Source of the DNA: Cryobacterium glaciale | Lineage (GTDB): Bacteria; Actinomycetota; Actinomycetes; Actinomycetales; Microbacteriaceae | Assembly: GCF_004402535.1 (NCBI RefSeq) | Contig: NZ_SOEY01000034.1 | Coordinates: forward strand, 1-64,000 | DNA: 64,000 bases | Reading direction: 5' to 3' | In this document: positions 21,712-27,360 of the stretch, piece after piece | Layout of the letters: each line of letters begins with the position of its first letter | How positions within the stretch are numbered: position 1 is the stretch's first letter | Notes under the pieces: generated by a model | Told to the model about the DNA's origin: nothing | Database searches by the model: none | The model's input: the letters and a program-made list of their open reading frames with translations, nothing else | Translations under genes and position numbers: made by a program

Positions 21712-21784
21712 GGCCCCATCGTTTAGCGGCCTAGGACATCGCCCTCTCACGGCGGTAACGCGGGTTCGAATCCCGCTGGGGTCA
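21712..21784 (+). tRNA. tRNA-Glu (anticodon CTC)
   Basis: The 73 bases fold as a tRNA. Acceptor GGCCCCA pairs with TGGGGTC plus discriminator A. The anticodon stem TCGCC/GGCGG closes the loop CTCTCAC with anticodon CTC. The T-arm is CGGG/CCCG-type around TTCGAAT. No CCA is encoded. A terminator hairpin follows directly. Confidence 0.96.
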
Positions 21785-23263: not shown

Positions 23264-24289
23264 GTGGAACTCGCTCTCCCCCTCTGGTTCGAAGTTGGAT
23301 CACTCGTCGTCCTGACCCTGGTTCTGGTCGCCGACCTGCTCATCGTCTACAAGCGCCCGCACGTTCCGAGCATGCGCGAAGCCGGCCTCTGGGTGGCCTT
23401 CTATGTCGGCCTGGCCTTGATCTTTGCCCTGCTGATGCTCGTGCTCGGCGACGCCGAACACGCCGGCCAATTCCTGGCCGGCTGGCTCACCGAATACAGC
23501 CTCTCGATCGACAACCTGTTCGTCTTCGTGATCATCATGGCCCGGTTCTCGGTACCGCGGAAATATCAGCAGGAAGTGCTGATGGTGGGCATCATCATCG
23601 CCCTTCTGCTGCGCGGGATCTTCATTCTGCTCGGCGCCCAGCTGATCGAAAGCTACAGCTGGATCTTCTACATCTTCGGCGCGTTCCTGTTCTACACCGC
23701 CGTCAAACAGGCATTGTCGTCGGAGGAGGAAACCGAAGACAAGGAAAACGCGGTCATTCGTCTGCTGCGCCGCCGTATTCGTATCTCGTCGGAATTCGAC
23801 GGCTCCAAGGTGCGCACGCAGATCGACGGCAGGAGGGTCTTCACCCCGATGCTCATCGTGTTCATCGCGATCGGCACCACCGACCTCATCTTCGCGCTCG
23901 ACTCGATCCCCGCGATCTTCGGCATCACCCAAAGCCCGTTCATCGTGTTCACCGCCAATATCTTCGCCCTTATGGGCCTGCGCCAGCTGTACTTTCTGCT
24001 CGGTGGCCTGCTGGAACGCCTCGAATACCTCAAGTACGGCATTGCGGTCATTCTCGGCTTCATCGGCGTGAAGCTCGTGCTGCACGCGATGCACGAAAAC
24101 GAATTGCCGTTCATCAACGGTGGCGAGCACATTCTGTGGGCGCCCGAGATCGGCACCTGGACCTCGCTCGGCGTGATCATCGGTAGCATGGCCGTGGCCA
24201 CCGTGGCGAGCCTGATCAAAGCCCGTCATGATGCCACGAAGCACGGGCACACGCTGGCCGAGCAGATCTCGGTTGACGCTAAGGAATGA
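23264..24289 (+). CDS. TerC/Alx-family integral membrane protein, probable metal-ion transporter
   Basis: A 341-residue protein with eight to nine membrane segments. The two conserved acidic motifs of the family are present: EYSLSIDNLFVFVIIMARF (about residue 80) and FALDSIPAIFGITQSPFIVF (about residue 210). A charged cytosolic loop (SSEEETEDKENAVIRLLRRR) separates the halves. GTG 23264 has AAAGG six bases before it. Named for tellurite resistance, TerC-like proteins in several bacteria export Mn2+, often with the same riboswitch, which makes Mn efflux the best guess here. Confidence 0.9.
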   Translation: MELALPLWFEVGSLVVLTLVLVADLLIVYKRPHVPSMREAGLWVAFYVGLALIFALLMLVLGDAEHAGQFLAGWLTEYSLSIDNLFVFVIIMARFSVPRKYQQEVLMVGIIIALLLRGIFILLGAQLIESYSWIFYIFGAFLFYTAVKQALSSEEETEDKENAVIRLLRRRIRISSEFDGSKVRTQIDGRRVFTPMLIVFIAIGTTDLIFALDSIPAIFGITQSPFIVFTANIFALMGLRQLYFLLGGLLERLEYLKYGIAVILGFIGVKLVLHAMHENELPFINGGEHILWAPEIGTWTSLGVIIGSMAVATVASLIKARHDATKHGHTLAEQISVDAKE

Positions 24290-24326: not shown

Positions 24327-25118
24327 ATGACTCTGGTCCAGCAGAGCACGATGGAACTTTCCACCGCGACGGCCCGCCTCGTCTTCAGTGCCCGCAGCGA
24401 TGTCGGCAGCGTGCGCAAGGTCAACGAAGACAGCATCCTCGCGCAGTCCCCGGTCTTCCTGGTTGCCGACGGTATGGGCGGCCACGCCCAGGGTGAGGTC
24501 GCCAGCCAAACCGTGCTGCGTGTTTTCGACGAACACATCGCGCGCGACCTGCCGTCGACGCCGGAACGCATCCTCGACGCCATCCATTCCTCGAACGATG
24601 CCGTGCGGGATCTCAGCGCAGCCGATGACTACGGCACGGCCGTGTCGGGCACGACCCTCGCCGGCATCGCCTTCGTCGACGCGGGTGATGATGTCAGCTA
24701 CCACTGGATGGCCTTCAACGTCGGTGATTCTCGCGTCTACACCTGGACCGACGGCGTTCTGACCCAGCTGTCGGTCGACCATTCCGCCGTGCAGGAGATG
24801 GTGGACGCCGGGCTGATCTCGGTCGAAGACGCCGAGAAGCACCCCGAGCGCAACGTCATCACCCGGGCCATCGGCGCCGACGAGTTCGTCGATGCCGACG
24901 TCTGGCTGCTGCCCGCCCTGAATGAGCAGTCGTTTCTGATCTGCTCCGACGGGCTGACCAAGGAACTCGACGACGCGGCTATCGCGCGCGTGCTGGCCAT
25001 GGACATCCGTTTGGACGGTGACGAACGCAGTATCGCCGACGTTCTCGTCGATGAAGCCATCGAACACGGCGGGCGTGACAACGTGAGCGTCATCTATGTG
25101 GAGGCGGCGTTCGACTGA
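24327..25118 (+). CDS. PP2C-family serine/threonine protein phosphatase
   Basis: A 263-residue phosphatase of the PPM/PP2C family. Metal-binding motifs are FLVADGMGGHAQGEVAS (about residue 45), SGTTLAGIAF, NVGDSRVYTW and SDGLTKELDD, ending with GGRDNVSVIYVEA. No membrane segment, so it is cytosolic. In actinomycetes such enzymes reverse Ser/Thr kinases of the PknB type, but no kinase gene lies in this window. ATG 24327 follows GGGGG. It starts 38 bases after the TerC gene and may share its transcript. Confidence 0.9.
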   Translation: MTLVQQSTMELSTATARLVFSARSDVGSVRKVNEDSILAQSPVFLVADGMGGHAQGEVASQTVLRVFDEHIARDLPSTPERILDAIHSSNDAVRDLSAADDYGTAVSGTTLAGIAFVDAGDDVSYHWMAFNVGDSRVYTWTDGVLTQLSVDHSAVQEMVDAGLISVEDAEKHPERNVITRAIGADEFVDADVWLLPALNEQSFLICSDGLTKELDDAAIARVLAMDIRLDGDERSIADVLVDEAIEHGGRDNVSVIYVEAAFD

Positions 25119-25163
25119 AGTGTTCGCCGGACCGTGTGCGAGCCAGGGTGCGGGGCGAGGTGT

Positions 25164-25169
25164 TACCCT
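25164..25169 (+). promoter_or_regulatory. -10 box of the leuCD leader transcript
   Basis: TACCCT lies six bases before the leader-peptide GTG at 25176, so the transcript should begin at or next to that codon (leaderless). No clear -35 box is visible. Confidence 0.45.
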
Positions 25170-25175
25170 GAACCC

Positions 25176-25223
25176 GTGGTACTGAGCCGACTTCTTCTGT
25201 GCCGCGACGAGTCCCTGTCCTGA
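25176..25223 (+). CDS. leuL: Leucine-rich leader peptide of leuCD (attenuator)
   Basis: A 15-residue peptide (MVLSRLLLCRDESLS, GTG start) with five Leu codons, three of them consecutive (CTT CTT CTG, 25191-25199). It ends in TGA at 25221, 60 bases before leuC. The codons for the second half form one arm of a 10-bp hairpin (25202-25211 with 25231-25240). Leucine-rich leader peptides controlling leu genes by ribosome stalling are established in bacteria, including actinomycetes for leuA. The call rests on Leu content, position and the hairpin. Confidence 0.75.
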   Translation: MVLSRLLLCRDESLS

Positions 25224-25240
25224 GGCCTCCCTCGTCGCGG
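25202..25240 (+). promoter_or_regulatory. leuC leader hairpin
   Basis: CCGCGACGAG (25202-25211) and CTCGTCGCGG (25231-25240) form a perfect 10-bp stem overlapping the leader-peptide codons. There is no T-run after it, so it is not a classical terminator. A ribosome stalled at the Leu codons would block its 5' arm. CTTCTTC (25191-25197) can also pair with the leuC site GAGGAAG (25268-25274). Confidence 0.6.
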
Positions 25241-25283
25241 AGTTCGGCGTGGCTGCCATCGATTCGTGAGGAAGACGCTCAAA

Positions 25284-26744
25284 ATGACCAATGTAATACC
25301 CACTTCGCAAGTGAGTTCCAGCACCGGCCTGCGCACGCTCGCCGAGAAGGTGTGGGACAAGCACCTCGTCACCAAGGGTGAGGACGGCACGCCCGACCTG
25401 ATCTACATCGACCTGCACCTGCTGCACGAGGTCACCAGCCCGCAGGCCTTCGACGGGCTGCGCCTGGCCAACCGAAAGCTACGCCGGCCCGATCTGACCA
25501 TCGCGACCGAAGACCACAACACGCCGACCCTGGCCATCGACAAGCCGATCGCCGATCTGACCAGCCGCACCCAGATCGAGACCCTGCGACGCAACTGCGC
25601 CGAGTACGGCGTGCGGCTGCACTCGCTCGGTGACATCGAGCAGGGCATCGTGCACGTCGTCGGCCCGCAGCTCGGCCTGACCCAGCCCGGCATCACCGTG
25701 GTCTGCGGTGACTCGCACACCTCCACGCACGGCGCGTTCGGGGCGATGGCGCTCGGAATCGGCACGAGCGAGGTCGAGCACGTCATGGCCACCCAGACGC
25801 TGCCACTGAACCCGTTCAAGACCATGGCCATCACGGTCAACGGCACACTGCGCACCGGGGTCACCGCGAAGGACATCATCCTCGCCGTGATCGCGAAGAT
25901 CGGCACCGGTGGGGGAGCGGGCTACGTGCTCGAGTACCGTGGCGAGGCCATTCGTGCGCTCTCCATGGAAGGTCGCATGACCATCTGCAACATGTCGATC
26001 GAGGCCGGCGCCCGGGCCGGCATGGTCGCGCCCGACCAGACCACCTACGACTACCTCGAGGGACGTGCGCACGCGCCGCGCGGCGCCGACTGGGACGCCG
26101 CAGTCGCCTACTGGCAGACCCTGGCCACCGATGACGGTGCCAGCTTCGACGCCGAGGTGATCATCGACGCCAACGAGCTCGAACCGTTCGTCACCTGGGG
26201 TACCAACCCCGGTCAGGGCGTCTCCTTGAGCGGATCCGTGCCGAACCCCGCCGATATCGTCGACGCCAACGAGCGCTCGGCCGCCGAGCGGGCGCTGGAA
26301 TACATGGACCTCACGGCCGGCACACCGATGAAGGAGATTCGGGTCGACACCGTTTTTCTCGGTTCCTGCACCAACAGCCGGATCGAAGACCTGCGCGCCG
26401 CCGCCGAAATCATCAAGGGCAAGACCAAGGCCGAGGGACTGCGCATGATGGTCGTTCCCGGCTCGGCCCGCGTGCGCATCGAGGCCGAAGCCGAGGGGCT
26501 CGACCAGATTTTTCTCGACTTCGGAGCCGAATGGCGTTTCGCCGGCTGTTCCATGTGCCTCGGCATGAACCCCGACCAGCTCGAACCCGGCGAACGCTGT
26601 GCGTCTACCAGCAACCGCAACTTCGAGGGACGTCAGGGCAAGGGCGGGCGCACCCACCTGGTGTCGCCGCTCGTCGCGGCAGCCACGGCTATTCGCGGCA
26701 CACTCTCGGGCCCTTGGGACCTCGTTCAGGATGGAGACCAGTAG
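25284..26744 (+). CDS. leuC: 3-isopropylmalate dehydratase large subunit
   Basis: A 486-residue aconitase-family subunit that isomerises 2- to 3-isopropylmalate in leucine biosynthesis. The iron-sulfur cysteines are in [14 protein letters not shown] and [12 protein letters not shown], and substrate-binding motifs are in [14 protein letters not shown] and [11 protein letters not shown] 25284 is preceded by GAGGAAG, nine bases upstream. leuD follows after one base. Expression is probably controlled by leucine through the leader peptide upstream. Length and motifs are standard. Confidence 0.96.
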
Positions 26745-26745
26745 C

Positions 26746-27360
26746 ATGCAGAAATTCACGACCGTCACCGGTATCGCGGTGCCGCTCCGCCGTTCCAACG
26801 TCGACACGGACCAGATCATCCCCGCCGTGCACCTCAAGCGCGTCACGCGCACCGGCTTTGAAGACGCCCTCTTCGCGGCTTGGCGCCAGGACCCCGATTT
26901 CGTCATCAATAAGAAGGAATACCAGGGCGGGCGCGTGCTCATCGCCGGGGCCGACTTCGGCATCGGTTCCTCGCGTGAACACGCGGTCTGGGCCCTGCGC
27001 GACTACGGGTTCGACGTGGTGCTCAGCCCCCGATTCGGTGACATCTTTCGAGGCAACTCCGGCAAGCAGGGGCTGCTCGCCGGTCAGATTAGCGAAGCGG
27101 ATGCCGAAACCCTGTGGAACCTCGTCGAAGCCGCCCCCGGCATCGAGCTGACCGTGGATCTGGTGGGTAAAACCGTGCGTGTCGGCGATCTGACCGTGAA
27201 TTTCGAGATCGATGATTACACTAGATGGCGGCTGCTCGAAGGTCTTGATGACATCGGGCTGACGTTGCGTGACGAAGCGCGGATCAGTGAATTCGAAGCA
27301 ACGCGAGAGTCGTGGTTGCCCCAGACTCTTCCCGCGCGGTCCCCGGAATCAACGCACTAA
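26746..27360 (+). CDS. leuD: 3-isopropylmalate dehydratase small subunit
   Basis: A 204-residue swivel-domain partner of LeuC. Conserved segments are [15 protein letters not shown] near the start and [18 protein letters not shown] (about residue 75), which complete the active site. ATG 26746 follows GGAG and lies one base after the leuC stop, so the two subunits are made together. The C-terminus is about ten residues longer than many LeuD proteins. Confidence 0.96.

Follow-up and report, generated by a model that had tools for sequence, protein, structure and literature searches.

The window analysed here, a 64,000-nucleotide stretch of a Cryobacterium glaciale contig (NZ_SOEY01000034.1), contains leuC and leuD, encoding the large and small subunits of 3-isopropylmalate dehydratase, on the forward strand at 25284..26744 (start ATG 25284; NCBIfam TIGR00170, 732 bits) and 26749..27360 (NCBIfam TIGR00171, 185 bits), respectively. 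Upstream of the leuC leader lie a PP2C-type phosphatase gene, with a score below the model cut-off, and a gene for a TerC/Alx-family membrane protein (23264-24289; TIGR03718, named R_switched_Alx). By direct reading, a leader peptide ORF of 15 codons, VVLSRLLLCRDESLS, plus a stop codon occupies 25176..25223 on the same strand, starting with GTG (25176-25178) and ending with TGA (25221-25223); the peptide, written (M)VLSRLLLCRDESLS before the stop, is encoded with a run of leucine codons, CTT CTT CTG, at 25191-25199. In 59 leaders, the peptide has a Leu run and, after it, a tail of the R-(D/G/A) type.

A −10 promoter element, TACCCT, is predicted at 25164..25169 on the forward strand; with 6 nt between it and the GTG, transcription is expected to begin with the start codon itself (25176). 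When a promoter of the TTGACA/TATAAT type was searched for at the window leader, no match was found. Among 54 family leaders, with starts set by frame alone, a TANNNT ends 6–7 nt before the start in 46 and 3–8 nt before it in 51, compared to means of 0.6 and 1.8, respectively, over 1,000 trials in which the upstream bases were shuffled (the highest shuffled count at 6–7 nt was 4). Thus, the leaderless 15-residue peptide proposed in a sequence-only reading of the window holds up, with the promoter spacing kept in most of the family leaders.

The first letters of the Leu run, CUUCUUC (25191-25197), are complementary over 7 bp, including one G-U pair, to GAGGAAG (25268-25274), the Shine-Dalgarno sequence of leuC; the sequence-only reading had located this match exactly, and the perfect 10-bp hairpin that it placed between the two strands was confirmed. 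This hairpin (P2) consists of a 5' arm, CCGCGACGAG (25202..25211), a 19-nt loop and a 3' arm, CTCGTCGCGG (25231..25240). The minimum free energy (MFE) fold of 25176-25290 (−41.9 kcal/mol) holds both P2 and the long-range helix (P1), and makes the latter longer than previously noted: past an A.A mismatch (25190, 25275), the pair G25189-C25276 is added, and 25183-25187 pair with 25277-25281, so that the P1 strands span 25183..25197 and 25268..25281. The energy of this fold is ordinary (z = −1.25; 23 of 200 shuffled sequences fold at least as well). A pseudoknot between GGCC in the P2 loop (25224..25227) and GGCU (25251..25254) was placed by comparison, as the MFE fold cannot hold pseudoknots; with 4 bp, including one G-U, it is weak in the C. 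glaciale window. All these strands are on the forward strand.

The P2 hairpin is beyond doubt: across the 54 family leaders, 99.6% of 540 cells are paired (27–51% in slid controls), and 3 of the 10 pairs show changes on both sides. This set spans 52 genera, two of which occur twice; L158 and L162 (hairpin misplaced or no start found by the script), L182 (from the genus of L167) and L224 (a congener) were omitted. When pairing partners were swapped among these leaders, the P1 strands paired better with their own partners than with swapped ones (−8.91 vs. a mean of −7.86 kcal/mol; 0 of 20,000 permutations as good, and 85 of 20,000 with wider zones), and a similar test on the pseudoknot gave 35 of 20,000 as good; two control region pairs without a proposed pairing were null (6,354 and 14,889 of 20,000), and kinship in these tests is uncorrected beyond the two controls. 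When the family leaders were aligned segment by segment with MAFFT, giving an alignment in which the register floats, column-wise counts showed 66.8% pairing for P1, below the 70.7% at slid register −1, and 39.4% for the pseudoknot as placed, with 68.5% at +1. Among 39 aligned leuA leaders that come from other families, P2 is 98.6% paired and the pseudoknot 91.5%, one pseudoknot pair being changed from G-C to A-U in 10 of the 39. Exchange of the Leu runs between leuA and leuC leaders within 17 congeners showed them to be interchangeable (own pairing better in 8 of 17). The conservation of the pairing in relatives, which the sequence-only reading had named as a test of its proposal, is therefore borne out by the partner swap, which is specific, but not by the column-wise count or the leuA/leuC exchange.

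Of the 241 Leu codons in seven reading frames of the window, 9 are CTT; in the 54 family leaders, CTT makes up 102 of 204 Leu codons. With respect to the earlier caveat that a 7-bp match can arise by chance, the pairing stands above chance when the Leu codons alone are redrawn according to local usage (0.085% of 20,000 redraws pair as well with the ribosome site), and 3.7% of redraws reach it when all leader codons are redrawn. Because CTT is rare locally and redraws of the Leu codons seldom pair as well, the rare codon and the good anti-ribosome-site are the same letters, and either may have been selected. A match without function, given that ribosome sites are rich in purines and the Leu codons here in pyrimidines, would fit the good pairing of swapped partners, the P1 count that does not rise above slid registers, the unspecific run exchange and the yield of the all-codon redraws; however, own partners outperform swapped ones with the controls null, and the Leu codons that could stand in place of the locally rare CTT would pair less well, and we consider an accidental pairing very improbable.

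An element of this kind, LEU, was described in 2005 before leuA in Actinobacteria; there, a Leu run forms the basal stem with the ribosome site of leuA, and a pseudoknot is present as well (Seliverstov et al., PMC1262725). A covariance model, R1, was built from the 39 aligned leuA leaders, all from outside Microbacteriaceae; three leaders with leuA near contig ends (L121, L125, L126) were omitted from this set, and 17 congener leuA leaders were purposely kept out of it. In the window, R1 matches the leuC leader at 25182..25272 on the forward strand (38.7 bits, E = 1.8 × 10−7), the runner-up scoring 14.9 bits. Genome-wide, with 150 of 7,412 first-look candidates scored, only the leuA leader (49.7 bits, E = 2.3 × 10−8) and the leuC leader (E = 1.0 × 10−5) were matched at E < 0.01; the third-ranked match, C17:128439 (E = 0.2), was dropped, since the surrounding ORFs include, by reading, no amino-acid biosynthesis gene. 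The two leaders of this genome, that of leuC and that of leuA (L094), have TGCCGCGACGAGTCC, CTGAGGCCTCCCTCGTCGCGGAGTTCG and TGGCTG in common. At the Rfam gathering threshold, the whole window yielded no match besides one tRNA gene (21712-21784); at low threshold, the leuC leader gave chance-level matches only, L094 had no match in Rfam 15 at E ≤ 5, and a search of phage records gave no match. Judged from these similarities, the leuC leader is almost certainly homologous to the leuA LEU element, i.e. it is, by sequence comparison, a second copy of the leader type known from leuA. The architecture outlined in the sequence-only reading is thus that of the published element, while that reading had overlooked three things: the paralogue at leuA, the pseudoknot as a third helix and the description of 2005.

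On a possible concerted evolution of the two leaders, the comparison points both ways: identity between leuA and leuC leaders is 0.779 within genomes vs. 0.759 between genomes (2/20,000), and a genome's own leuA leader is the closest leuA leader to its leuC leader in only 4 of 31 cases. In one genome (G255), the leuA and leuC leaders (L338 and L155) are both interrupted between P2 and the pseudoknot strand by unusual insertions that resemble each other, as though one leader had received its insertion from the other.

The distribution of the element was followed in three overlapping sets of loci (six loci occur in two sets, and the same genome can recur between sets). Among 100 relatives, 99 had a LeuC match, the one in G063 being only distant (28% identity); of those with a match, 30 were fetched as loci and 39 as further places, plus G050; a 40th region, L064, represents the wrong gene end rather than the region upstream of leuC. 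The loci L143 and L149 are duplicates of L056 and L057. R1 found the leuC leader at 58 of the 69 loci of this first set, namely in all 55 congeners fetched (E from 1.8 × 10−9 to 0.0045, the weakest being L003 at 22 bits) and in three other genera of Microbacteriaceae. With the window genome and G050 (L224) included, LEU precedes leuC in 56 of 57 Cryobacterium congeners; in the exception, G011, which also has a second, partial leuC, the complete leuC (L058) adjoins an LtbR-type gene, on a contig that is perhaps foreign (assembly contamination 4%). In the Microbacteriaceae sample, LEU precedes leuC at 58 of 91 loci, one per genome, so that of 90 genomes searched, 87 have leuC and 58 of these carry the leader (the 91 loci are those of 92 leuC places that remain when the second leuC of G227 is left out). 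In the named set, it does so at 18 of 80 loci, and the genera of all 18 belong to Microbacteriaceae.

Transcription of leuCD is known to be controlled by LtbR/NdgR (PMC4340878). A divergent LtbR-like gene, called by a short pattern of our own, precedes leuC at 10 of 69 loci in the first set, 0 of 91 in the family set and 53 of 80 in the named set, and one pattern-called protein that was checked is of the IclR type. Three genomes, from two other families, have a close LtbR orthologue next to leuC (78–100% identity). No close orthologue was found in the C. glaciale genome, where the best match has 30% identity; the best matches in this genome, G013 and G058 fall at 30–35% identity, and G060 has no match at E = 10−5. 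Neither LEU nor an LtbR-like neighbour is present at 1, 33 and 9 loci of the three sets. The 33 such family loci include L206, L209, L216 and L221, some of the genomes being as small as 1.1–1.5 Mb. Because an LtbR-like neighbour and a LEU leader do not occur together at any locus in the three sets, the presence of LEU before leuC goes with the absence of LtbR, about one third of the family sample having neither. LEU may have replaced LtbR at leuCD in Microbacteriaceae; a literature search found no report of such an exchange of regulators.

Sampling of 129 genomes across the order brought further copies to light: outside Microbacteriaceae, five genomes have two LEU matches. In four of these, from two families (G061, G077, G334 and G348), the second LEU (loci L306, L307, L308 and L309, respectively) precedes a small ORF (MSEEAQKARQALQESMDLREQGHSDD in L308 and similar in the other three) and then leuB, called by NCBIfam NF002898 above its cut-off in 4 of 4; ilvE comes next after leuB in both loci read that far (L306, by an NCBIfam fragment, and L307, by reading). 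The leader peptides of these loci, MRHALILRCRGGA, MARQLVILSSRGEFR, MTQRVVILIRRGEFR and MQRQVLLIASRGGVR, contain the runs ALILR, QLVILS, RVVILI and QVLLIA, i.e. Leu together with Ile and/or Val, at the site where the leuC leader of the window has a Leu-only run. Such a mixture of codons would suit the branched-chain operon that appears to lie behind these leaders. In the fifth genome (G273), both LEU matches precede leuA-type genes. Two leuA-type genes, each with a LEU of its own, are present in G273 (L310/L311), G059 (L314/L315), G205 (L316/L317) and G263 (L318/L319), and the additional leuA-type genes are matched by NF002991, a model for a 2-isopropylmalate synthase subfamily. No paper describing, for these bacteria, a LEU element or a leader peptide in front of leuC or leuB came up in the literature search, which did not use leuB as a name and covered subscription papers thinly.

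The features described above suggest the following mechanism. Transcription is predicted to start at the GTG of the leaderless 15-codon peptide. With leucine plentiful, the ribosome would pass CUU CUU CUG, stop in the P2 loop and leave; CUUCUUC could then pair with GAGGAAG, and P2 together with the loop pseudoknot would close the fold and hide the leuC ribosome site. With charged leucyl-tRNA in short supply, the ribosome would stall on the Leu run, covering CUUCUUC and keeping P1 from forming, such that leuCD would be translated. Homology, conservation, the leaderless geometry, the rare-codon run, P2 and the better-than-swapped pairing of P1 and the pseudoknot are all observed here, and the leuC leader, as a LEU element homologous to that of leuA, probably acts as a translational attenuator by ribosome stalling, with leucine as the presumed signal for a switch of this kind.

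Leader peptides with runs of amino-acid codons act as transcriptional attenuators elsewhere, and translation of the peptide could, in principle, decide on intrinsic or Rho-dependent termination before leuC instead. Dependence on Rho cannot be judged from sequence; however, no terminator-like site is present in 25080-25320, P2 is followed by AGTTCGGCG, without a U run, and under termination the P1 pairing would serve no purpose. Transcriptional attenuation is accordingly considered quite unlikely. The terminator-free translational attenuation put forward in the sequence-only reading gains from the identity of its architecture with LEU, its retention in relatives and the lack of a terminator-like site, but its leucine-dependent switch is still putative.

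The authors of the 2005 paper favour a protein ligand for LEU, partly from S. coelicolor mutants (PMC1262725). According to that paper, mutations of the S. coelicolor leuA leader peptide (Craster 1999) had some effect, inconsistent with classical attenuation, and elsewhere in it mutations of the leucine codons are said to be without influence on regulation. A regulatory protein could thus bind to LEU, with the peptide being incidental or merely modulating the folding, a view with which the reported departure of the leuA codon mutants from the attenuation prediction (PMC1262725) and the conservation of P2 far beyond the need of a simple P1 pairing are in keeping. Yet the reading frame, the leaderless start and the rare CUU codons are all kept, and the run, which before leuC in the window holds Leu alone, mixes Leu with Ile and/or Val at leuB, as codon sensing predicts. 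The codons before leuB thus speak for codon sensing and against a site that only binds a protein, and these four leaders, though few, are the best evidence for the codon run as the sensor; a protein site seems unlikely, if less so than termination. With attenuation by stalling as the preferred reading, LEU can be viewed as a reusable translational attenuator with an exchangeable run, its leuA scaffold having been carried to leuC and to leuB-ilvE and, in Microbacteriaceae, having taken over leuCD as LtbR was lost, a scenario that we hold with middling confidence, finding as much reason to doubt as to accept it.

Compared to known systems, the leuC leader is like the leuA LEU element in having a leader ORF with a Leu run, a basal stem, an inner hairpin and a pseudoknot, whereas the published element was found before leuA and inside one transposase gene (PMC1262725), and the one described here stands before leuCD, where LtbR is missing. 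Within the window genome, CTTCTTC faces GAGGAAG at leuC, whereas CTCCTCCTT faces GAGGAAA at leuA. According to PMC8079986, the S. lividans leuA leader peptide MRFGLLLLSCRGEGL (leuL1) is transcribed leaderless and without a typical terminator; leuL1 resembles the leuC leader in being a leaderless 15-residue peptide (LLLLSCRGE, against LLLCRDE here) without a typical terminator, and differs in preceding leuA, not leuC; the passages on it do not treat a pairing with the ribosome site. The choice between an attenuator and a protein site was left open for LEU in the 2005 paper (PMC1262725); the leuC copy and the leuB versions with other branched-chain codons offer a direct test of the LEU mechanism, since under the codon hypothesis the amino acid to which a copy responds can be foretold for each of them. 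LtbR/NdgR, of the IclR type, regulates leuCD, as is proposed for LEU here, and its gene adjoins leuCD in other families, but it is a transcription factor acting on DNA, as opposed to the RNA leader found here (PMC4340878). The leuCD genes present a clear case in which families differ in having a DNA-binding repressor or an RNA leader before one and the same gene pair.
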